In this document: in pieces, positions 4,993 through 64,000 of the stretch
How positions within the stretch are numbered: the stretch's first letter is position 1
Layout: the number at the start of each line of letters is the position of its first letter
DNA from: a virus
Length of the DNA: 64,000 bases
Direction: 5' to 3' (one strand)
Virus record (IMG/VR): IMGVR_UViG_3300035112_000003
Coordinates: 1 to 64,000 of that record
Notes under the pieces: generated by a model
The model's input: only the letters and a program-made list of their open reading frames with translations
The model's database searches: none
Told to the model about the DNA's origin: nothing
Translations under genes and position numbers: made by a program

Positions 4993-5523
4993 ATGAAGTT
5001 TTTAATTCTCGCCCTATTAGGCTCTTTTTTTCTCAGTACAGGAATGGCTCAAAATGGGGGCCAATATCCCGAAAATGGCTCTGTTAAATTAGAATGGGTT
5101 GGCACAAGCGTAAAGATCACAAATAAACAACCCTGCGAAAGTGTTATTAAGGTTGCTTACGCTCAATCAACTGTCGATTTAACTATTGCAGGTAACTCAA
5201 CTATTATATTTATGCCGCCTGCTGCTGTAGCTACTATTAAAGCCAAATCCACTACTAATTGCGGGGATACAGATTTTGGATGGGTTGAATTATCGCTGTC
5301 AGCAATGCCTGTCAAATTCATTTCTTATGACTTCCTAGCTATCGGCAATAAAGACGTAGTAGTAACTTTTGAGACGGCAGAAACAGCTAATGTAAAGCAG
5401 TACAACGTCCTTATCTCAACTGATGGTGTAAACTACCGGAAACTGGATTCGATCAAAGCTGATTTAATAACCCCTAACCGAACATATTCAATCAAAGTAA
5501 ACACCTTAACCTTTAAAAAATAA
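4993..5523 (+). CDS. Secreted beta-sandwich protein
   Basis: A 176-residue protein from the ATG at 4993, chosen because it begins a clean Sec leader (MKFLILALLGSFFLSTGMAQ); an upstream ATG at 4966 overlaps the previous gene. Residues from about 105 have the PVKF(I/L)S ... VVVTFETAE ... YNVLISTDGVNYRKL pattern of Bacteroidota extracellular beta-sandwich modules that often precede type IX secretion tails. The C-terminus (NTLTFKK) is not a complete T9SS signal. It looks host-derived and probably acts in the periplasm or at the cell surface. Confidence 0.65.
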   Translation: MKFLILALLGSFFLSTGMAQNGGQYPENGSVKLEWVGTSVKITNKQPCESVIKVAYAQSTVDLTIAGNSTIIFMPPAAVATIKAKSTTNCGDTDFGWVELSLSAMPVKFISYDFLAIGNKDVVVTFETAETANVKQYNVLISTDGVNYRKLDSIKADLITPNRTYSIKVNTLTFKK

Positions 5524-31945: not shown

Positions 31946-33385
31946 TTATGCACTTACAATGTTTACAAATTGATTGGCTGCTACATTTCTTATTGATCTG
32001 TAGGTTGCCATCTCAATATTATCCCGCAGCGTACCATCTGTAGGATTGGTAGAACCACCACCCCAGTTCCATACACGAATACCATTACCTATTGAACCGC
32101 CTTTAGGAGGTTGTTGGCTCATGACGGTAATGTTTTTGTAAACGCGAGAGGGGGTTTTTGCATCAGGTGTTTCACCCATTGGACATAAGAAACCATAGTT
32201 ACGGTAATAATCCGTAGCAGGTGTTAACCCGGTATATGCTTCGGTGTTGAAGTTCCGGTATTTCCCGATCTGGAAACGGTACCCGTCAATATCAATCACC
32301 TTGAAGCCATAGGCTACGCTTGCATCTTCTGATTTTTCCCCTTGTCCCCAAACAAATGCACCGGCTGGGAAGGTTTGGAAAATACCATCAGAGAAATCCT
32401 GGCGTTGGAAAATATCAGCCATCCACATATTCTGTTTTACACAGCCATTTACATCCATAACGCGGGTCAGCGTATGCAGGAATGGGATATCAAGATTGCC
32501 CGGCGTATAAGTCACTGTTTCTCCATCGGCTGCAATTTTAGGTAATAAGCCTTGGCAACCCACAGAAGTATCGGTGCCTAATCCGGTATTATCTACAGAA
32601 TCCCCGAACATCAATTTACGCTCTACGTTATTTACGAAACGTTGTGATGCTTTTACAAGTCCCAAATAAGTGAAATAAGATACGCCAGCCTGAGCCGCAC
32701 CGCCGATAGGAGAACCGCTTACCCCACTATCAATGAACACATCGGTCATTTCACCAAGATCGGTAGCTGACCATGTATCATGAATTTCAGTGATGTTGTT
32801 ATCGTATCTCTGAGTAAGATATACTTGCGGGATGTTTGTTCCAGATGCTTCACCCACATCCACACGACCACCGAATATAATTACATCCGTAGCCAGCAAT
32901 GTAGACGCTTGACCAGCGGAAGTTAGTGATTGAGTGGATTTTTTCGGGCGAAGATTGAAGGTAAATGCATTCGCAGTTTCAACGATTGGCCCAAGTATTT
33001 CACCGCCTACGCCGGTAGAAGCAATATAAATTGTTTCTCCAACACGTAAGGGTGATTGAGTACCTGAATTATAGTGGAATGCCGAAGCAAGCGTACATGC
33101 CACGGTAGCGCCAGCGGTAGCACCAGAAGCATTAGATGCCAACTGAATACCGATCTGAAGTTTACCACGGCTTTCAAACCAGAAGAAGTTCCGGTTCATT
33201 ACCTGCTCCATGCCGCCATAAGTGGCTAACCACCACGTCCAGTTTTCTGCACCGTATTTTTCAACGAATTGTTTATAGTATTGGGGCGTAAGTAATTGTA
33301 GATTAGATACCAACGCCCGATTCGCGCCGCCAGACACCGATATATTGCCTGGCTGTAATATGTTACTGGTAGGAATTCCTGCCAT
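31946..33385 (-). CDS. Major capsid protein (HK97 fold, crAss-like)
   Basis: A 479-residue protein. The N-terminal segment (GANRALVSNLQLLTPQYYKQFVEKYGAENWTWWLATYGGMEQVMNR) and the long mixed alpha-beta body with a hairpin-rich centre match my memory of crAss-like major capsid proteins, and the size fits. It lies after a coiled-coil scaffold-like protein and before a strong terminator, the expected arrangement for the most abundant virion protein. Confidence 0.75.
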   Translation of the reverse strand: MAGIPTSNILQPGNISVSGGANRALVSNLQLLTPQYYKQFVEKYGAENWTWWLATYGGMEQVMNRNFFWFESRGKLQIGIQLASNASGATAGATVACTLASAFHYNSGTQSPLRVGETIYIASTGVGGEILGPIVETANAFTFNLRPKKSTQSLTSAGQASTLLATDVIIFGGRVDVGEASGTNIPQVYLTQRYDNNITEIHDTWSATDLGEMTDVFIDSGVSGSPIGGAAQAGVSYFTYLGLVKASQRFVNNVERKLMFGDSVDNTGLGTDTSVGCQGLLPKIAADGETVTYTPGNLDIPFLHTLTRVMDVNGCVKQNMWMADIFQRQDFSDGIFQTFPAGAFVWGQGEKSEDASVAYGFKVIDIDGYRFQIGKYRNFNTEAYTGLTPATDYYRNYGFLCPMGETPDAKTPSRVYKNITVMSQQPPKGGSIGNGIRVWNWGGGSTNPTDGTLRDNIEMATYRSIRNVAANQFVNIVSA

Positions 33386-35302: not shown

Positions 35303-37744
35303 TTATTGTGGCTGCATTTGTTGTTCTTGCATTTCTTGTTCCTGTGGCTCCCCTTCCTGCTGCGCCTCTGGCCCAGGTTGTTGCTGTTGTTGAGATTGCG
35401 CCATTATATTTTGCATCATAGCTTGTGTCTCTTGCTGCAATGGCAACGTTATCCCCGGAATTGCATAGTTAATCACATTAGATAACCATGACGGCATTGT
35501 GCCGCCTTCAGTAGCCGCCTTAGACGCAAAAGCAAAGCCCCCCCGTACCAGTTCTATTTTTATTTGCTGTAAAGCCTTAAACTCTTCTAGCTCCTTATCT
35601 GCATCTAGTTTATCCTGCTGTAATTGTTTATCTGATTGGGCTTTTAATGCTGCTGCCTGCTGTTGAACTTGCGCGTTTTGTTGGCTTTGTTGCTGTGCAT
35701 TTTCTTGTTCGGCGCGAATCATGCGCTTCATTGAATTCCTGAAATACAAAGAAGCTAGCTTAGTATTTTCTTTGGCAATTCGTTTTAATTTAGCTGGGTC
35801 TAAATAATTGATCAATTGAGGGTTGGCGGCCAGTGCTTGGTTTACCGAATTAGTTAAATCTGCAATCTCAAATTGATCTGGCAGCAATTCAAACTTAGTA
35901 GAAAACTGCCGATCATTTACATCTTCCTCTTTTAGTAAGTGCCTGTAAGTTTTAGCGCCAAAACGAACTGAATTATTCAACAAACAGGCCACTTTCTTCG
36001 CCGTTTCTTCCATTATGTACTTATAGGCATCATACATGTAATCAGTAGCAAATGCCGCTGTTTGCTGTGACGCTTGCACATTCTCAGAAGTGACCCTTGG
36101 TTGAACTGCTTGTGTAATAAGGTTCGGGTCTTCCCCTAATTGATCTTTTAAAACACGGTATTGGAAGTCATATTGCGCGATAAGCCCTTGCATAGCTCCA
36201 ACAAATCCGGCGTTTTGCAATTCCTGAATAGGAACAGGTAATGGATTGCCTTCTGCATCCCTGCCCCGATAATACAATCTACCAGTTTGCTCGTATACTT
36301 TTTGAACATTAATTGGGCTTGTTCCATCGGCAGCCAATCCTAAATCAACTTCATTAATCGCATCTATATTAATAGCTGCACCGGGCGGTATCATGGTAGC
36401 TATAACTTGCTGCATCTTTAAGATGATAACAATCATAGCCTCAATTGGCTGTTCTATTTTTTCAGGTAATGCGATATTTCGCATATCCTGATTTTGATAC
36501 ATGTAAAGACTGATTGGGAATTCCACATCACCTGATTCTTTCGGGTCTTGTGGTCGTATCATATTATTATCCAATCCCCATTCCAGCATCTTTTGAGCAT
36601 ACCGAACGTAAACCCCTTTATATAAATTCCACTTGTCTTTCTTTACAAACTCCTGGTTGTCGCCAACACTATTCGGCGCTTGCTGCCTGCGCTCAATAAT
36701 AGTACTCTGGTTTTGCTTAGTAACCGTCATCAGGTACCCATCTTCATCCACCGACTTAATCCAGAAGTAGATGCACTCTACGTTCCATTCGTCGTAAGGT
36801 CGAATATAAGCCAGCAACCAATCATAATTCCATGTGAGCTTATCGAAGCGTTGATATTCCTGTGATGTTTGGGCAATTAAAAACAAGTCTTCCTCTGATA
36901 ATGTGCCACCAAACTCCTTCCCATACTTACGCCTTATCTCAGATATTTTAAGAGATTTGACAAAGCCACGCATGGCCGTATCTCTCATATCATCATATTC
37001 AGAATATGAGTATAAAGAATTTAATGGCTTCACCCATTCTACATGCACTACACCATATTCATCCATCCATACGTAAGTAGAAACCAACCCGCATTCTATA
37101 GAATCATGAAGTATCTTTTTCTTTAAAACATCGAAAAATCCCTGCGACTGAAGAATATCATTCGTACCTATTTCGTATTTTATCTCTTCTGGCAACCGCT
37201 GCCCAGCAATTGCCCATTCTTCCAGATCATCTTTATCTTCTGCTACAAATTGATCAGGGCTGATCATTGGTACTCCCGACTGCTGCTGAAGCTCTTCTAA
37301 CTGCTTACGATTATAAAGCACAAATTCAGCTTGCTCATATTGATCTTGTTTATCTTTAACAGATATTGGATCAACTGCCGTTACCTGCACTTTCTCTATC
37401 CGCTGCATCCACCTGCCTACTAACCCAGTAATAATCCGGTTAACCAGCATGGGAGCGCTGTACTTCAAATTTGCGTAGTTAACTTTCCCATTAAAGTTCA
37501 GAAGATCAGCAAATTTCGCATATATATTAATCTTTCCTGATGACCACAATATATTGGTTTTGAACCTATCGTTCCTAAGGAAACTATAACCATTACTAAC
37601 GCCTGCCGAATATTTCTGCTCTATATCCAGTGCTAATTGTTTCCCATATTTAGGGTCAAGTTTATCCTTGACATTCTTTGTGAGAAGAAAATCTTTATAT
37701 GATTGCCCGGAAATTCCTATGCTTTGTGACTGATTTTCAGACAT
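35303..37744 (-). CDS. Portal protein, crAss-like
   Basis: An 813-residue protein with a large alpha-helical core and a C-terminal Gln-rich tail (about residues 690-813). Segments such as YANLKYSAPMLVNRIITGLVGRW and GLVSTYVWMDEYGVVHVEWV fit the portal clip/wing regions of crAss-like phages. Order is TerL, portal, small beta proteins, scaffold, capsid. A promoter lies immediately upstream. The portal forms the DNA entry ring and motor docking site. Confidence 0.75.
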   Translation of the reverse strand: MSENQSQSIGISGQSYKDFLLTKNVKDKLDPKYGKQLALDIEQKYSAGVSNGYSFLRNDRFKTNILWSSGKINIYAKFADLLNFNGKVNYANLKYSAPMLVNRIITGLVGRWMQRIEKVQVTAVDPISVKDKQDQYEQAEFVLYNRKQLEELQQQSGVPMISPDQFVAEDKDDLEEWAIAGQRLPEEIKYEIGTNDILQSQGFFDVLKKKILHDSIECGLVSTYVWMDEYGVVHVEWVKPLNSLYSYSEYDDMRDTAMRGFVKSLKISEIRRKYGKEFGGTLSEEDLFLIAQTSQEYQRFDKLTWNYDWLLAYIRPYDEWNVECIYFWIKSVDEDGYLMTVTKQNQSTIIERRQQAPNSVGDNQEFVKKDKWNLYKGVYVRYAQKMLEWGLDNNMIRPQDPKESGDVEFPISLYMYQNQDMRNIALPEKIEQPIEAMIVIILKMQQVIATMIPPGAAINIDAINEVDLGLAADGTSPINVQKVYEQTGRLYYRGRDAEGNPLPVPIQELQNAGFVGAMQGLIAQYDFQYRVLKDQLGEDPNLITQAVQPRVTSENVQASQQTAAFATDYMYDAYKYIMEETAKKVACLLNNSVRFGAKTYRHLLKEEDVNDRQFSTKFELLPDQFEIADLTNSVNQALAANPQLINYLDPAKLKRIAKENTKLASLYFRNSMKRMIRAEQENAQQQSQQNAQVQQQAAALKAQSDKQLQQDKLDADKELEEFKALQQIKIELVRGGFAFASKAATEGGTMPSWLSNVINYAIPGITLPLQQETQAMMQNIMAQSQQQQQPGPEAQQEGEPQEQEMQEQQMQPQ

Positions 37745-37800: not shown

Positions 37801-39873
37801 CTAATTGACCGAAAAATTTTGATTATTTGTGTTAACATAACTGCGAACCAGCGGCTCAGAAGGCGGCTTTGGCTTCCGGATCGGCTCCATCAAACACACC
37901 AAAAGCATTAAAAATGATACCACTGTATCGTAAGCCGTACGATCGTACGGGTCAAAAACCTTAGCATTTTGCAATAACTCTTCAAAATCTATCAGTTCAC
38001 AATAGTTCTCAAAGTAGGCTATGCCACAATCCAGTTGTTTGGTCAAGCTAAATGGAGTAGTGGGGAACCCTTTGAACCGGTCTGCATTCTCCCGCTTAGT
38101 TGGATCAATGGTACTTAATGGATAAGTTCCTAAATATCCGACCTTCCCTCTATCCCTGAAATATGACAGATAATCATCGCTATTGTGTTCGTACCATATT
38201 TTGAACCCAAAATATTCTCCGGCCAGCATTACCTGTTCATGAAGCGTTTCTTTAACCGCTGGCCGCCCATATAGATGGCCAATAGCTTTACCTGTGTTAT
38301 GAGGATTTAGCATATCCGGCCTTAACCCAATCCATGCAGATGCTTTTGATCCATACTTTCTACCGCCCTGGCTATTGGAATATCCATCAACAGCTATAGC
38401 GCCTATTTCAACTCGATCTGGATACCTAAGTTTATTTTCATATTTAAACTTGTTTTCCTGACCTTTTTCAGGGAATGCAGTAATTGTCCAATGGAAATTC
38501 TTTTCGCTTTCCTGAATATCCCTCCATCTTACTACCTGATCTAAATCTCTATAGAAAATTATTTTACGCTTGTAAATTGGACTCTCTTCAAGTTCTTTAA
38601 GCCGCCTGTTTATATTGAAAGAATTGAATGCGCAATTAGTGTTGGCAGCTTCAAACATTTCGTCTACGGTACAGGGATTCATACGAATTTCTTCTTCCAA
38701 TAAATCTCCCGTTAATCCCTCTCTTCTTTTTACCATCACATATTGTCGCGCACCCATTTTAATATCTTCTTCAGTGAGTTCGGATACTACTACACCTGTG
38801 ATTGGGTCTTTCTTAACCCACTTATCTACTAGGTACTGGAATTGTTCATGGGTTGGCTCTCCAATAACCGACATTCCATGCCGATCAATAAATCCTTCAT
38901 ATCCATCATAAGCAGCAGAGAAATATGTAACAAACCTGTTTGGTGTTGGCCTATTAGGATATTTGAATTGATTGGCTCCATCCCATGATTTCTTAAATGC
39001 CGCGCCGCCGCCTTTTGTCATCTCGTTTACGGTGGATGGTGCCTCACAAAATCCTACACGCTTTGCGCCTTTAATCATAGTCTTACTGACTATTGAAATG
39101 AATTTAGCGAAATCAACTTCTGTCGGCCATTTACCTCCTTCATCTGCAAGGATTCTCGTCATCCTACCCCGATCGTAGGCATTTAATACGGGTGCCCTAT
39201 AATTTATTTTTGATTTCTGCCCACCATCTGTAGCCTCTCCATTCTTTAACCTAGCAGCAAAAACTAGTTCTGTTACACTATCTGCCCTGTTTAGCTGTCT
39301 GGGTTTTAAGAAAATTGGCAATTGATTGTAGCCATTGCGAACCATGTCAGTGAACGTATCTCTACTATCCACATTGGTTTTACTAACTAAGCCACAATTG
39401 CTATTAGTAAAAAATATACACTCGTAAACAAGATTTGATGTCGCCTGAGACGACGCCCCCTCACGCCTTTTTTTACCACGGAAAACACCTAAACACCATA
39501 GTACATTTTCCCAATGATTTAAAAACAAAAAATACCGACGATCCGTATCGCGGTATTCTGGGTAAATATCATCTTCAAGTTTCCACCAATTTAAATAAAA
39601 GTAATTTTTACCGGTTATGAAAGTAGGGGAACCATTATTGAAAAACCAATACCCTTCTCTGCACTTTATTACTTCTTCTCTGGCAAATTGCTCTTGTTCG
39701 GGTGTCAATAAAGCATTCCCATCATCATCATATTCTATCCTGTTAAAGAATGATGGCAATTCCCTGCGTTTCCATACTTGCGCCTGGTTCTCTTTCCCCC
39801 ATCCGGCCATTAACGTCTCCAACGGATTATCGGGAGTATACGTTAACGACCCATAGACATCTACATATAACAT
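37801..39873 (-). CDS. Large terminase subunit
   Basis: A 690-residue protein. The N-terminal WFFNNGSPTFITGKNYFYLNWW motif (76-97) is characteristic of crAss-like TerL proteins. The ATPase region has a variant P-loop, GKKRREGASS (133-142), and a Walker B strand TRILADEGGK (239-248, Asp-Glu at 244-245). The C-terminal nuclease starts around AIAVDGYSNSQGG. Packages DNA into the procapsid through the portal. Its ATG overlaps the stop of the previous gene by one base. Confidence 0.85.
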   Translation of the reverse strand: MLYVDVYGSLTYTPDNPLETLMAGWGKENQAQVWKRRELPSFFNRIEYDDDGNALLTPEQEQFAREEVIKCREGYWFFNNGSPTFITGKNYFYLNWWKLEDDIYPEYRDTDRRYFLFLNHWENVLWCLGVFRGKKRREGASSQATSNLVYECIFFTNSNCGLVSKTNVDSRDTFTDMVRNGYNQLPIFLKPRQLNRADSVTELVFAARLKNGEATDGGQKSKINYRAPVLNAYDRGRMTRILADEGGKWPTEVDFAKFISIVSKTMIKGAKRVGFCEAPSTVNEMTKGGGAAFKKSWDGANQFKYPNRPTPNRFVTYFSAAYDGYEGFIDRHGMSVIGEPTHEQFQYLVDKWVKKDPITGVVVSELTEEDIKMGARQYVMVKRREGLTGDLLEEEIRMNPCTVDEMFEAANTNCAFNSFNINRRLKELEESPIYKRKIIFYRDLDQVVRWRDIQESEKNFHWTITAFPEKGQENKFKYENKLRYPDRVEIGAIAVDGYSNSQGGRKYGSKASAWIGLRPDMLNPHNTGKAIGHLYGRPAVKETLHEQVMLAGEYFGFKIWYEHNSDDYLSYFRDRGKVGYLGTYPLSTIDPTKRENADRFKGFPTTPFSLTKQLDCGIAYFENYCELIDFEELLQNAKVFDPYDRTAYDTVVSFLMLLVCLMEPIRKPKPPSEPLVRSYVNTNNQNFSVN

Positions 39874-50394: not shown

Positions 50395-50835
50395 TTAAAA
50401 AGGCAAATCATCATCTCCGGTTAATGTAATATCAGTTGTTACTGGCTGATAGCTGTTAGCGCCATTATCATATGAAGAAGCCTGATTGCCTTGTGGTTGT
50501 TGGTTACCATCACCTGGTTTTGCACCACCTAATAATTGAATACTATGTACTCGTAAGATAATATTCGCTTTTACTTCACCCTGATTATTTTTATACATTT
50601 TAACATCAGGAGAGCCGTCCACGAAAACTTGTGACCCTTTCAGAAGATATTGCGCTACTTTAGTTTTATCAGTCCAATACGCACATCCCACCCATACAGT
50701 TTTTTGAACTTCCACATTATTCACATCCCTATATTTTTCAGTATGTGCTACATTGAAATTTATTACAGTTTTGCCATTTACATTATTTATTGTAGCGTCT
50801 TTCCCTAAGTGGCCAATTGCTTGTAGCTTAATCAT
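50395..50835 (-). CDS. ssb: Single-stranded DNA-binding protein
   Basis: A 146-residue protein with a classic SSB OB-fold (LQAIGHLGKDATINNVNGKTVINFNVAHTEKYRD ... VWVGCAYW ... YLLKGSQVFVDGSPDVKMYKNNQG), a Gly/Gln/Asn-rich linker and an acidic DDDLPF tip used to recruit replication proteins. It protects single strands during phage replication and recombination. Confidence 0.95.
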   Translation of the reverse strand: MIKLQAIGHLGKDATINNVNGKTVINFNVAHTEKYRDVNNVEVQKTVWVGCAYWTDKTKVAQYLLKGSQVFVDGSPDVKMYKNNQGEVKANIILRVHSIQLLGGAKPGDGNQQPQGNQASSYDNGANSYQPVTTDITLTGDDDLPF

Positions 50836-50838
50836 AAA

Positions 50839-51171
50839 TTATTTGTTTTCGTTTAAAAAATATTCTATTACGTAAAATGTTTTTGCAATTTCAATCATTC
50901 GTTTAGTGTCAGCGGTTTTACCCTTACATATTTCCAGAACAAAGGCCCACATCTGCTTTTTTACGCCTTTATCTAACTGTTCAATAGGCACTAATTTCTT
51001 ATGCCTTTTAAGTTCTGAGTATACCCAGCACATTATCCCACGCCTACAGTTTAGTTCTACTATCTGGTTTGTATAGTCTACATTGTCCTGTTCAAAATAG
51101 AATGTTTCTTTTCGGCCTATACGCTCCATGCAGGCTAACCAATCATGATCTGCTTTTTGATATTTATCCAT
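50839..51171 (-). CDS. Hypothetical replication-region protein
   Basis: A 110-residue basic helical protein (NQIVELNCRRGIMCWVYSELKRHKKLV ... KQMWAFVLEICKGKTADTKRMIEIAKTF), located between the SSB and loader genes and overlapping the loader stop by one base. May be an accessory of the helicase loader. No family recognised. Confidence 0.5.
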   Translation of the reverse strand: MDKYQKADHDWLACMERIGRKETFYFEQDNVDYTNQIVELNCRRGIMCWVYSELKRHKKLVPIEQLDKGVKKQMWAFVLEICKGKTADTKRMIEIAKTFYVIEYFLNENK

Positions 51172-52094
51172 TATCCGCGCATATCTTGACCAGAAACATC
51201 AAAAATATTAAACATATCCTTAATCCTACTTCTTACTCTAAACCCATATTTTTCTTGAATTTCAGAAAAGCTATTGTTTGTGGAAATAATTAAATTATTA
51301 AACGTTTTATTGCGAAGATATATCCCTTCAATAAATGATTTAAAGAAATTAATTTTAGTGCCGTAATGATTAATAACACTTTCTTCTGTCCCTACATCAT
51401 CCAAGTACAATATTTTGCTGTTGCTTGTTGGTATATTATACTCTCCATGTTCTTTTATTTCTTCAGATATTTCAATCATACTTAAAACAAGAATAGGGTT
51501 CAATTCATTTTTTGATAAGCATTTAACTAAATGTGTTTTCCCAAGCCCTGAAATACCCCGAATCAAAAGCCCTTTATTTAAAGAATATTTAAGTTGCGAA
51601 TCAAAGTCTGTTTCAAATCTTTTGTCCCTGCTAACAAAAAAGCACAATGCAGTTATCAACTTTTTAGTATCATCATTAACAATTAGTTTTTTACCAAATT
51701 CATTTTGACTAGTCCATGACATTAATTTAAACATTCTATTAGCAGTCCATAACTCCCTAAGTTCTTTCTTCCTGTTCTCTTCAGTTTCTTTATCCTTTTT
51801 ACGTTGCTCCTTTTGCCATTGATCATGATGCTTAAGCATATTAGAACGCTTAAGTAATTCATTTCGATCAATCTGAGCATTCCAATCTATTTGAGACAAT
51901 CTGGATTCGATTTGTTCTGGCAATGCCGCAAGCTGGCTCATTTTCCATACTAAATGTTTTTTAGCCTCTGCGATCGCATGTTCGATAATGCCTTCCTCTT
52001 CTTCTTTTGTTAGAATATATGGCTCTTGTTCAGAATCAAGGTCTGTCAAATTCAATTGTTTGGCCAATTTCTGAAGCTCGTTGTTTAGGCTCAT
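51171..52094 (-). CDS. DnaC-like AAA+ helicase loader
   Basis: A 307-residue protein. The C-terminal half is an AAA+ ATPase: Walker A GISGLGKTHLVKC at about 198-210, Walker B KILYLDDVG at about 243-251, and NLIISTNNSF (sensor 1). The N-terminal half is a coiled coil rich in Lys/Glu that could bind a helicase. It should load the replicative helicase at the origin, like DnaC or lambda P. Overlaps the initiator gene by 59 bases. Confidence 0.85.
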   Translation of the reverse strand: MSLNNELQKLAKQLNLTDLDSEQEPYILTKEEEEGIIEHAIAEAKKHLVWKMSQLAALPEQIESRLSQIDWNAQIDRNELLKRSNMLKHHDQWQKEQRKKDKETEENRKKELRELWTANRMFKLMSWTSQNEFGKKLIVNDDTKKLITALCFFVSRDKRFETDFDSQLKYSLNKGLLIRGISGLGKTHLVKCLSKNELNPILVLSMIEISEEIKEHGEYNIPTSNSKILYLDDVGTEESVINHYGTKINFFKSFIEGIYLRNKTFNNLIISTNNSFSEIQEKYGFRVRSRIKDMFNIFDVSGQDMRG

Positions 52095-52818
52095 TTTTAT
52101 AATTTTTCATTTTTAGAACTAATCTCTGCCATTCCTTTGTTTGGCTAATATCAGATAAAGACCTGTTTTTAAGCCATGAATCTGATTTTATGAATGGAAT
52201 AATAACCTTCCAGCTTTCCAGAACGTCATTCATTTTACCATTCACGACCTCCGCCCTAGCCCATTTCTTCATTAAAGCTATTTTATAGGCTATTTGCAGG
52301 CAAGCCGAATAATCCGACTCTTTGTCAAAGAAGTAGTCAGGAATCGCCTCTAAATACATTTTAGCCATCTCGGATACTAAATACATGAAATAGTTTTTTT
52401 GAGATTCTTCGATGTTTACTTTACATAAAGACTCTAACTGTTTTATAACCCTAATAACATCTTCATTTATATTTATATTTACATTTTCCATATGTTGTAA
52501 CATATGTTCTTTCATATGTTTAGTACTAACACGATTATCTTTCCTTGATTTACAGAACTTTACACGTTTTTCTTTCTCTGTTTTAAGGCGCTCATTCCAG
52601 TATTTGCCATTATTCTCCTTAAACTTGTCAGAGATTAGTGGCCATATATGATCGAACTTGTGACCCAACACATGTTTTATCATATGTATCGTCATATGAT
52701 CCTTTTGAAATTGCAACATCAACAAGTCCATATATGCGCCCTTGCACTCAAAATCCAAGTACATTGTGCCAGATATGTAATCTCCTGGGTAAAATAAAAA
52801 TGCTGGGTCTTTCGCCAT
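52036..52818 (-). CDS. Replication initiator-like protein (DUF1376-type N-terminus)
   Basis: A 260-residue protein. The N-terminus DPAFLFYPGDYISGTMYLDFECKGAYMDLLMLQ is the typical opening of DUF1376-type phage replication proteins. The middle is basic with several His-Met pairs (KHMKEHMLQHMEN), encoded by the 12-bp repeats described below. The C-terminal half is helical. It is paired with the helicase loader as in lambda O and P. It should bind the origin and recruit the loader. Confidence 0.75.
   Translation of the reverse strand: MAKDPAFLFYPGDYISGTMYLDFECKGAYMDLLMLQFQKDHMTIHMIKHVLGHKFDHIWPLISDKFKENNGKYWNERLKTEKEKRVKFCKSRKDNRVSTKHMKEHMLQHMENVNININEDVIRVIKQLESLCKVNIEESQKNYFMYLVSEMAKMYLEAIPDYFFDKESDYSACLQIAYKIALMKKWARAEVVNGKMNDVLESWKVIIPFIKSDSWLKNRSLSDISQTKEWQRLVLKMKNYKNEPKQRASEIGQTIEFDRP
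52465..52700 (-). other. Candidate replication origin: two iteron triplets and an A+T tract
   Basis: Inside the initiator gene, CATATGTT occurs at 52489, 52501 and 52513, exactly 12 bp apart. A second triplet, CACATGTT (52669), CATATGTA (52681) and CATATGAT (52693), is also spaced 12 bp. Next to the first is a run of 17 A/T bases (52465-52481). This is the lambda-ori layout: iterons and an unwinding element within the initiator gene. They encode repeated His-Met codons, which is the alternative reading. Confidence 0.6.
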
Positions 52819-52849: not shown

Positions 52850-53044
52850 TTAAGCCACTTGCGTGGATTCATGTAATCCAGCCTTTCGGTATTGCTTTAA
52901 TTTGTTGGAAATTGTCTTCCGATCCACATTTAAAAGCCGGGCGGCTTTCGCTTTATCAAAATCTACCTGTCGGAGAGTTTCCACTATAATGTCGTATTCA
53001 GCCTTCAATGCGGCTATGTCTAACGGTTTAACTTTTCTTGGCAT
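52850..53044 (-). CDS. Fis-like HTH regulator
   Basis: A 64-residue protein with a C-terminal HTH_8 (Fis-type) domain: VDFDKAKAARLLNVDRKTISNKLKQYRK at about 28-55, preceded by a short helix. Such domains form dimers that bind DNA. It lies just upstream of the initiator gene and has its own promoter with a palindrome. It could regulate replication or be autoregulated. Confidence 0.8.
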   Translation of the reverse strand: MPRKVKPLDIAALKAEYDIIVETLRQVDFDKAKAARLLNVDRKTISNKLKQYRKAGLHESTQVA

Positions 53045-63402: not shown

Positions 63403-64000
63403 TTATCCTTTAAGTTTTTCTTTTGTAAGCTTCTGAATTTCTTCAAGAAGCCCCTCGTTATCTTTAAGAAGTTGTTTGGCGGCATCTTTCCCTTGACCTA
63501 ACTTACTGTCGTTGTAGCTATACCAAGCACCGGCCTTTTTAATTACGCCTAGATTAGAAGCTATTTCAACAAGTTCGCCTATCTTATCAATTCCTTCCCC
63601 AAAGATTATATCATATTCGCAGTTTTTGAATGGGGGAGCCACTTTATTCTTGACTACTTTAACTTTCACGCGATTCCCAATAGCTTCATCCCCGTCTTTT
63701 ATTTGGGCCATCTTACGCACATCTAAACGCACAGATGAATAGAACTTTAAGGCATTCCCGCCAGTAGTAATTTCCTGTGGCTGATAAGGATTTCCAATTG
63801 TGGCGCGAAGTTGGTTAATGAAAATACAAATTGTATTAGTCTTTGAAATAGTACCGGTTAATTTCCTGCATGCCTGCGACATAAGGCGGGCCTGTAGTCC
63901 CATTTTTGAGTCGCCCATTTCGCCTTCCAATTCAGCTTTTGGTACCAACGCAGCTACCGAGTCGATCACTACAATAGCGAATGCTCCACTAACAATCAAT
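63403..64000 (-). CDS. recA: RecA recombinase, 3' part
   Basis: The last 199 codons or so of recA; the 5' end lies beyond the right edge of the window. The segment begins in the ATPase core ([41 protein letters not shown]), includes [12 protein letters not shown] and the [19 protein letters not shown]2 loop, and ends in the C-terminal domain. RecA drives strand exchange in phage recombination and repair. The first in-frame TTG seen here is not the true start. Confidence 0.95.

Follow-up and report, generated by a model that had tools for sequence, protein, structure and literature searches.

Do the evenly spaced CATATG repeats that lie within the coding sequence of a predicted phage replication initiator merely reflect the protein that they encode, or do they form a DNA element in their own right? 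The question is raised by a 64,000-nucleotide stretch of viral DNA (the window), which comprises positions 1-64,000 of the 64,798-base IMG/VR record IMGVR_UViG_3300035112_000003. Here, the clustered CATATG copies and an adjoining A/T run are all contained in a minus-strand open reading frame (ORF) at 52036-52818, in line with the initial annotation, which placed a candidate lambda-like origin inside the initiator gene. Because the DNA letters, beyond the encoded protein, are preserved across hundreds of related viruses, we read the repeat arrays and the A/T tract as very probably (about 0.88, based on sequence comparison) a phage replication origin within its initiator gene, i.e., a lambda-like intragenic iteron origin of a distinct and mostly uncultured initiator family. 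The earlier proposal is thus supported by conservation at the synonymous level, by the tract, and by the helicase-loader gene next to the initiator.

The repeats in the window

On the plus strand, exact CATATG copies are found at 52489, 52501, 52513, 52681, and 52693, and a one-base variant, CACATG, at 52669. These positions bear out the two triplets of the initial annotation, with a 12-bp step between the copies of each and with starts 180 bp apart. In the direction of the gene, iteron array 1 (52681-52698, minus strand) holds the copies at 52693 and 52681, 12 bp apart, and falls in the part coding for the predicted DNA-binding domain; iteron array 2 (52489-52518, minus strand) holds those at 52513, 52501, and 52489 with a 12-bp period and encodes HMKEHMLQHM in the linker. 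The CACATG sequence (52669-52674, minus strand) is possibly a degenerate third copy of array 1. However, it is retained in neither of the two nearest relatives, L122 and L123, which in effect reduces array 1 to two copies instead of the triplet originally described. Over the whole window the word CATATG is not enriched (29 observed versus 26 expected); it is its clustering that stands out, with five copies in 215 bp against a maximum of three in 200 dinucleotide shuffles. Moreover, 52489-52518 is the sole site in the 64 kb with a nontrivial hexamer occurring three times at 11/12-bp steps (mean of 0.03 in 60 shuffles). Since every exact copy is in frame and specifies a His-Met pair, the window alone cannot settle between DNA and protein.

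Conservation of the DNA letters among homologues

Homologues of the initiator were collected independently of CATATG by using the N-terminal signature KDPA[FVL]LFY as the query. The resulting sample comprised at least 80 loci in viral contigs, drawn from 591 relatives, together with 64 in bacterial genomes, prophages of Chitinophagaceae and Flavobacterium hosts among them, and was dereplicated to 104 genes. Most homologues display two arrays: the first, at approximately +100 to +157, falls in the part coding for the domain, and the second, at approximately +290 to +366, falls in the linker. The steps are of 11, 12, or 22-24 bp, and copies occupy every reading frame. Across the 104 genes, CATATG is seen 205, 40, and 24 times in frames 0, 1, and 2, respectively, versus 145, 16, and 4 in a synonymous-codon null (maxima of 159, 26, and 10), and the same null yields 58 spaced CATATG pairs (maximum of 72) against the 165 observed. 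The comparison of synonymous sites that had been proposed in the initial annotation likewise comes out on the side of the DNA: His codons in His-Met pairs are CAT rather than CAC in a ratio of 205:7, as opposed to 234:125 for all other His codons, and the tract codons described below are nearly fixed. The signal is also local: the 5' halves of the initiator genes (52 kb) contain 122 pairs with an 11/12-bp step, and the surrounding DNA (963 kb) contains 8.

The nearest relatives retain most of the pattern. L122 (78% identity over the N-terminal domain) has both array 1 copies, and in array 2 it has two exact copies with CATAAG at the third place; L123 (71% identity) has one array 1 copy and two array 2 copies. 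In a set of short homologues of 103-128 amino acids (L003, L018, L033, L037, L090, and L008), the array and the tract lie beyond the stop codon, in noncoding DNA, where up to seven copies follow a strict 12-bp period.

When every IMG/VR contig was scanned for triplets of CATATG at a fixed spacing, on the basis of the motif alone, the same genes emerged. A 12-bp spacing recovers at least 119 loci, and the matches listed include 88 within an initiator homologue and 6 immediately downstream of one (94 in all); for an 11-bp spacing, which recovers at least 120 loci, the corresponding counts among the matches listed are 89 and 5 (again 94). Spacings of 10, 13, and 15 bp return 14, 1, and 27 loci, respectively, none at an initiator. 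No relatives were recovered from the viral contigs by single-sequence searches with proteins of the window, whereas pattern and alignment queries did yield them; searches of cultured phages and plasmids gave almost nothing close, and three remote plasmid-borne DUF1376 genes. There are also two loci (L056:1034-1100 and L080:197-230) with a CATATG array and a GAAAAT/ATAAAT tract but without a recognizable DUF1376 gene, the upstream ORF coding for an unrelated small protein. These are possibly stand-alone origins or cases of a diverged initiator.

The A/T hexamer tract

Read along the coding strand, the final CATATG passes directly into GAAAATGTAAATATAAATATAAATGAAGATG. The 17-base A/T tract of the initial annotation is found as a run at 52465-52481, but its true extent is greater: the A/T-rich hexamer tract, a predicted unwinding element, covers approximately 52453-52488 on the minus strand (GAAAAT GTAAAT ATAAAT ATAAAT GAAGAT), directly 3' of array 2. 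It is the least stable 36-mer of the 50-55 kb region and, by the same measure, ranks within the top 0.11% for the whole window. After the last array 2 iteron, the homologues show the consensus GAAAAT GAAAAT RWAAAT RTAAAT, i.e., (GAAAAT)2(RWAAAT)n, with a T at each sixth base up to position 30 in 92-97% of them. The mean GC content of the tract is 0.19 versus 0.34 for the gene (lower in 62/62 genes), and it is among the lowest 5% of 36-base stretches by GC in 56 of 58 genes. Its codons are nearly fixed (Asn AAT 224 versus AAC 1; Glu GAA 176 versus GAG 1; Asp GAT 55 versus GAC 0; GTA in 41/45), whereas outside the tract the same genes use AAT at 59% and GAA at 73%. Comparison among relatives thus establishes a DNA-level element with an 11/12-bp period, two conserved places, and a codon-fixed tract of lowest stability at its edge.

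In four of the short homologues (L018, at 5028-5057 and surroundings, L033, L037, and L090), the noncoding tract instead takes the form of AAT/AAC/AAG triplets (TAA-TAA-CAA) that resemble DnaA-trios. These triplet tracts adjoin five to seven iterons or decayed copies thereof with an exact 12-bp period. We tentatively suggest, as a conjecture that is rather less likely to be right than wrong, that (RWAAAT)n or the noncoding AAT/AAC triplets might be a sequence-read opening module for the assembly of the initiator or loader along one strand, i.e., a counterpart of the DnaA-trio for a phage winged-helix initiator, with the coding versions dictating an Asn/Glu-rich linker.

Other iteron words at the same spacing

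The spacing extends to initiators with other repeat sequences. Beside the CATATG initiators there are initiators with GCCGTGGC; GCCGTGGCA repeats occur in L230 at +135 and +147 and again at +312 and +324; and further repeats at like steps include GATAACCCAAAA (L236), GGTAATACCAC (L225), AACCCA (L242), and CAATTG (L245). When repeated 6-mers are tallied by spacing without regard to motif, peaks appear at 11, 12, 22, and 23 bp in the groups with and without CATATG alike; in the latter, 12 genes show the 11-bp step versus 3.2 in the null (maximum of 7) and 12 show the 22-bp step versus 2.8 (maximum of 6). The linker motif of a gene reappears in its own array 1 zone 99 times, as against 33 in the synonymous null (maximum of 51). 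When array 1 residues are masked, the iteron class still clusters on the tree of the N-terminal domain, which is poorly resolved, with 14 changes versus 42 in shuffles. Among cultured alphaproteobacterial phages, phiLM21 (gp32) and Pkon1 (p29) have linker repeats with an 11-bp spacing. In L250 and L255 from Flavobacteriia, AAGCTA is found at +175, +187, and +199 and at +433 to +451, an arrangement that recalls the two arrays at positions shifted from those of the main group.

The initiator and its proposed action

The initiator gene (52036-52818, minus strand) codes for a 260-amino-acid protein with an N-terminal DUF1376-like domain of predicted winged-helix fold, a linker, and a variable C-terminal part. 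The protein matches the PHROG "primosomal protein" at E = 5e-4. Among 79 homologues, 67 also match this PHROG label and 55 match PF07120 (DUF1376; E <= 1e-3); some homologues match DnaB_2 or DnaD-like/replisome-organizer profiles, and some match PHROGs labeled "O-like." An AlphaFold2 model of the protein, built with the 79 homologues, gives residues ~11-90 as helices, a hairpin, and a long helix at a predicted local distance difference test score of 90-98. In three homologues (L041, L093, and L210), an insertion of residues (CIYLIKDMLTGLTKIGSSNKPERRLVELK...) that look GIY-YIG/T5orf172-like separates the DUF1376 domain from the iteron array, with the array and the tract remaining together.

These features are consistent with a mechanism in which the winged-helix N-terminal domain would bind the CATATG iterons; as these recur every 11-12 bp, which is close to one turn of the helix, the protomers would line up along a single face of the DNA. 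Array 1, within the sequence coding for this domain, and array 2, within that for the linker, would be drawn together, and the joined complex would strain and subsequently melt the A/T hexamer tract beside the final iteron. Once the tract is open, the replicative helicase could be brought to it by the DnaC-like loader, the product of the neighboring gene.

Evidence against an origin and alternative explanations

Several observations weigh against the presence of an origin. About one-third of the dereplicated homologues are without CATATG, and several (e.g., L243, L246, and L247) show no clear iterons. In the window itself every exact copy stands in frame 0, so the DNA-level case depends on the relatives. 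GC skew in the window gives no separate origin signal and was set aside because it tracks gene strand, and the source record is an uncultured and possibly incomplete virus contig. With respect to the protein, the first 80 residues of the window initiator match PF07120 at 20.1 bits (E = 8e-4), below the curated cutoff of 30.1. The fold matches of the domain are to winged-helix proteins (ORC2, the archaeal AAA+ protein Sso1545, MarR, TubR, and pNOB8 centromere proteins) at weak Z scores of ~4.5-6; all being to a common fold, they suggest a winged helix for the N-terminal domain. Fold and sequence searches against solved structures found no solved relative of the initiator by sequence, and lambda O and Rep structures are not among the fold matches, which excludes nothing. 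Finally, the reading rests on comparison, from which we infer the steps of binding, looping, melting, and loading.

The most immediate alternative is that the repetition is purely one of protein, with His-Met-x-x repeats and an Asn/Glu-rich linker selected as peptide and the DNA repeats a by-product. Indeed, the window and most 12-bp cases encode HMxxHMxxHME in frame 0 (for the matches listed at 12-bp spacing inside a homologue, the leading copy occupies frame 0 in 80 cases, as against 6 for frame 2 and 2 for frame 1). Nevertheless, an 11-bp array necessarily spans all three reading frames, as is seen in 89 of the 120 matches listed, and hence no peptide repeat explains such arrays. The excess of CATATG over the synonymous null in frames 1 and 2, the arrays and tracts beyond the stop codons of short homologues, the near fixation of His and tract codons, and the replacement of CATATG by other motifs at an equal period speak against it as well. 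We therefore regard the peptide-only explanation as refuted for the initiator family by sequence comparison and as highly improbable for the locus. The initial annotation had noted the His-Met coding, which holds in the window, and allowed that protein and DNA explanations could both be true; the relatives now settle this in favor of the DNA.

Two further alternatives accept a DNA element but give it another role. As an operator or autoregulatory site, the arrays would bind the initiator or another phage protein and control transcription of the replication operon, in which they indeed lie; initiators often regulate their own genes, and two arrays ~180 bp apart could loop. Yet the arrays are situated 100-360 bp into the gene and not at a promoter, a codon-fixed A/T hexamer tract of lowest stability invariably lies on the same side of array 2, and a loader gene adjoins, which makes a purely regulatory site unlikely, even if the element may have a dual role as operator and origin. 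It is very unlikely that the element serves partition or packaging (as a parS- or pac-like site) and falls within the initiator gene by chance. Spaced palindromes are typical of such sites too, and TubR and the pNOB8 centromere proteins are among the winged-helix matches; against this, the site accompanies the initiator gene even in prophage loci of bacterial genomes, its motif tracks the predicted DNA-binding domain of the initiator itself, and the adjoining A/T tract plays no part in partition.

The replication neighborhood and other genes of the window

The gene for the DnaC-like AAA+ helicase loader (51171-52094, minus strand; phrog_3277, E = 4e-13; phrog_50, E = 8.5e-10) overlaps the 3' end of the initiator gene, and that for a single-strand binding protein of the replication module lies at 50395-50835 on the same strand (PF00436, E = 3.6e-15). 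The gene beside the initiator differs among relatives: L122 has a DnaC-like neighbor as in the window, and L123 has a primase/helicase instead. A DnaA-box origin was considered and dropped, as no exact box is near 52489; there is none within ~1.7 kb of the arrays, and the nearest is at 50717. Directly upstream of the initiator, a small ORF (52862-53042, minus strand) codes for a Fis/NtrC-type helix-turn-helix protein (KAARLLNVDRKTISNKLKQY). At 63403-63999 (minus strand), the window contains a phage-encoded RecA (PF00154, E = 2.6e-62) truncated by the window end. Three large proteins in likely terminase/portal/capsid positions (37801-39873, 35303-37744, and 31946-33385, minus strand) have no Pfam match at E <= 0.01, pointing to a divergent phage.

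Comparison with known origins

In lambdoid phages (ori-lambda and the Stx phages P27 and 933W), the origin lies in the middle of gene O, with iterons followed by an A/T-rich tract and an adjoining helicase-loader gene; the iterons form one cluster, of four in lambda and six in the Stx phages (PMC7466680). The window shares the location of the repeats inside the initiator coding sequence (just beyond the stop codon in short homologues), the A/T-rich tract directly adjoining the iterons, and the neighboring loader gene, which is variable in relatives. It differs in its 6-bp palindromic cores, 11/12-bp period, two clusters, and hexamer-periodic A/T tract, and the window initiator shows no match to the lambda O family (Phage_rep_O) in a Pfam search up to E = 1. 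Thus, what is new here, as judged from sequence, is a lambda-like layout in another initiator family, with iterons that differ in size, in period, and in how many clusters they form.

Iteron plasmid origins (RK2, F, and R6K) likewise combine initiator-specific, helix-phased direct repeats with an A/T-rich unwinding element containing short repeats, and in the DnaA-trio and DNA-unwinding elements of bacterial origins, the final initiator site is followed at once by short A/T-rich repeats (PMC10797057). The window resembles the former in its helix-phased direct repeats next to an A/T-rich tract; the plasmid Rep proteins have two winged-helix domains, and in the initiator of the window one winged-helix-like domain, at residues ~11-90, is confidently modeled. 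It is the TAA/CAA-like triplets of the noncoding tracts of L018, L033, L037, and L090 that recall DnaA-trios, whereas the coding tracts have a 6-bp period and the arrays of the window have no exact DnaA box nearby; to suppose that both serve to open the strands is no more than an analogy.

There are also affinities with DUF1376/PHROG "primosomal protein" genes, including ydaU of the Escherichia coli Rac prophage, located by the gene for ATP-binding YdaV. These have in common a DUF1376-like N-terminal domain and usually the type of neighbor, but the repeat sequence changes between lineages. Rac ydaU (L263:4620-5477) contains degenerate TGTTCAA/TTGAACA-type repeats at +148, +392, +425, +437, and +451; its stretch of lowest GC comes after these repeats, and the gene could be the seat of Rac oriJ. 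A literature search that covered few subscription journals found no paper joining DUF1376 genes with a replication origin in a phage, and nothing relevant on the CATATG motif.

Implications

If this reading is correct, it would provide both a function and a DNA target for the large DUF1376 family of phage proteins of "unknown function," and it would allow the origins of uncultured phages and prophages, in their hundreds and from Bacteroidota, Clostridia, and other lineages, to be found with nothing but their sequence. The occurrence of one two-array layout with many iteron words would represent a natural experiment, from which the recognition code of the winged helix might be deduced by setting each initiator against its own sites. 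The hexamer tract, with its nearly fixed codons, would be a candidate for a sequence-specific unwinding element. More generally, the linker HMxxHMxxHMENENEN would be a case of a protein sequence dictated by a DNA element and not by protein function.
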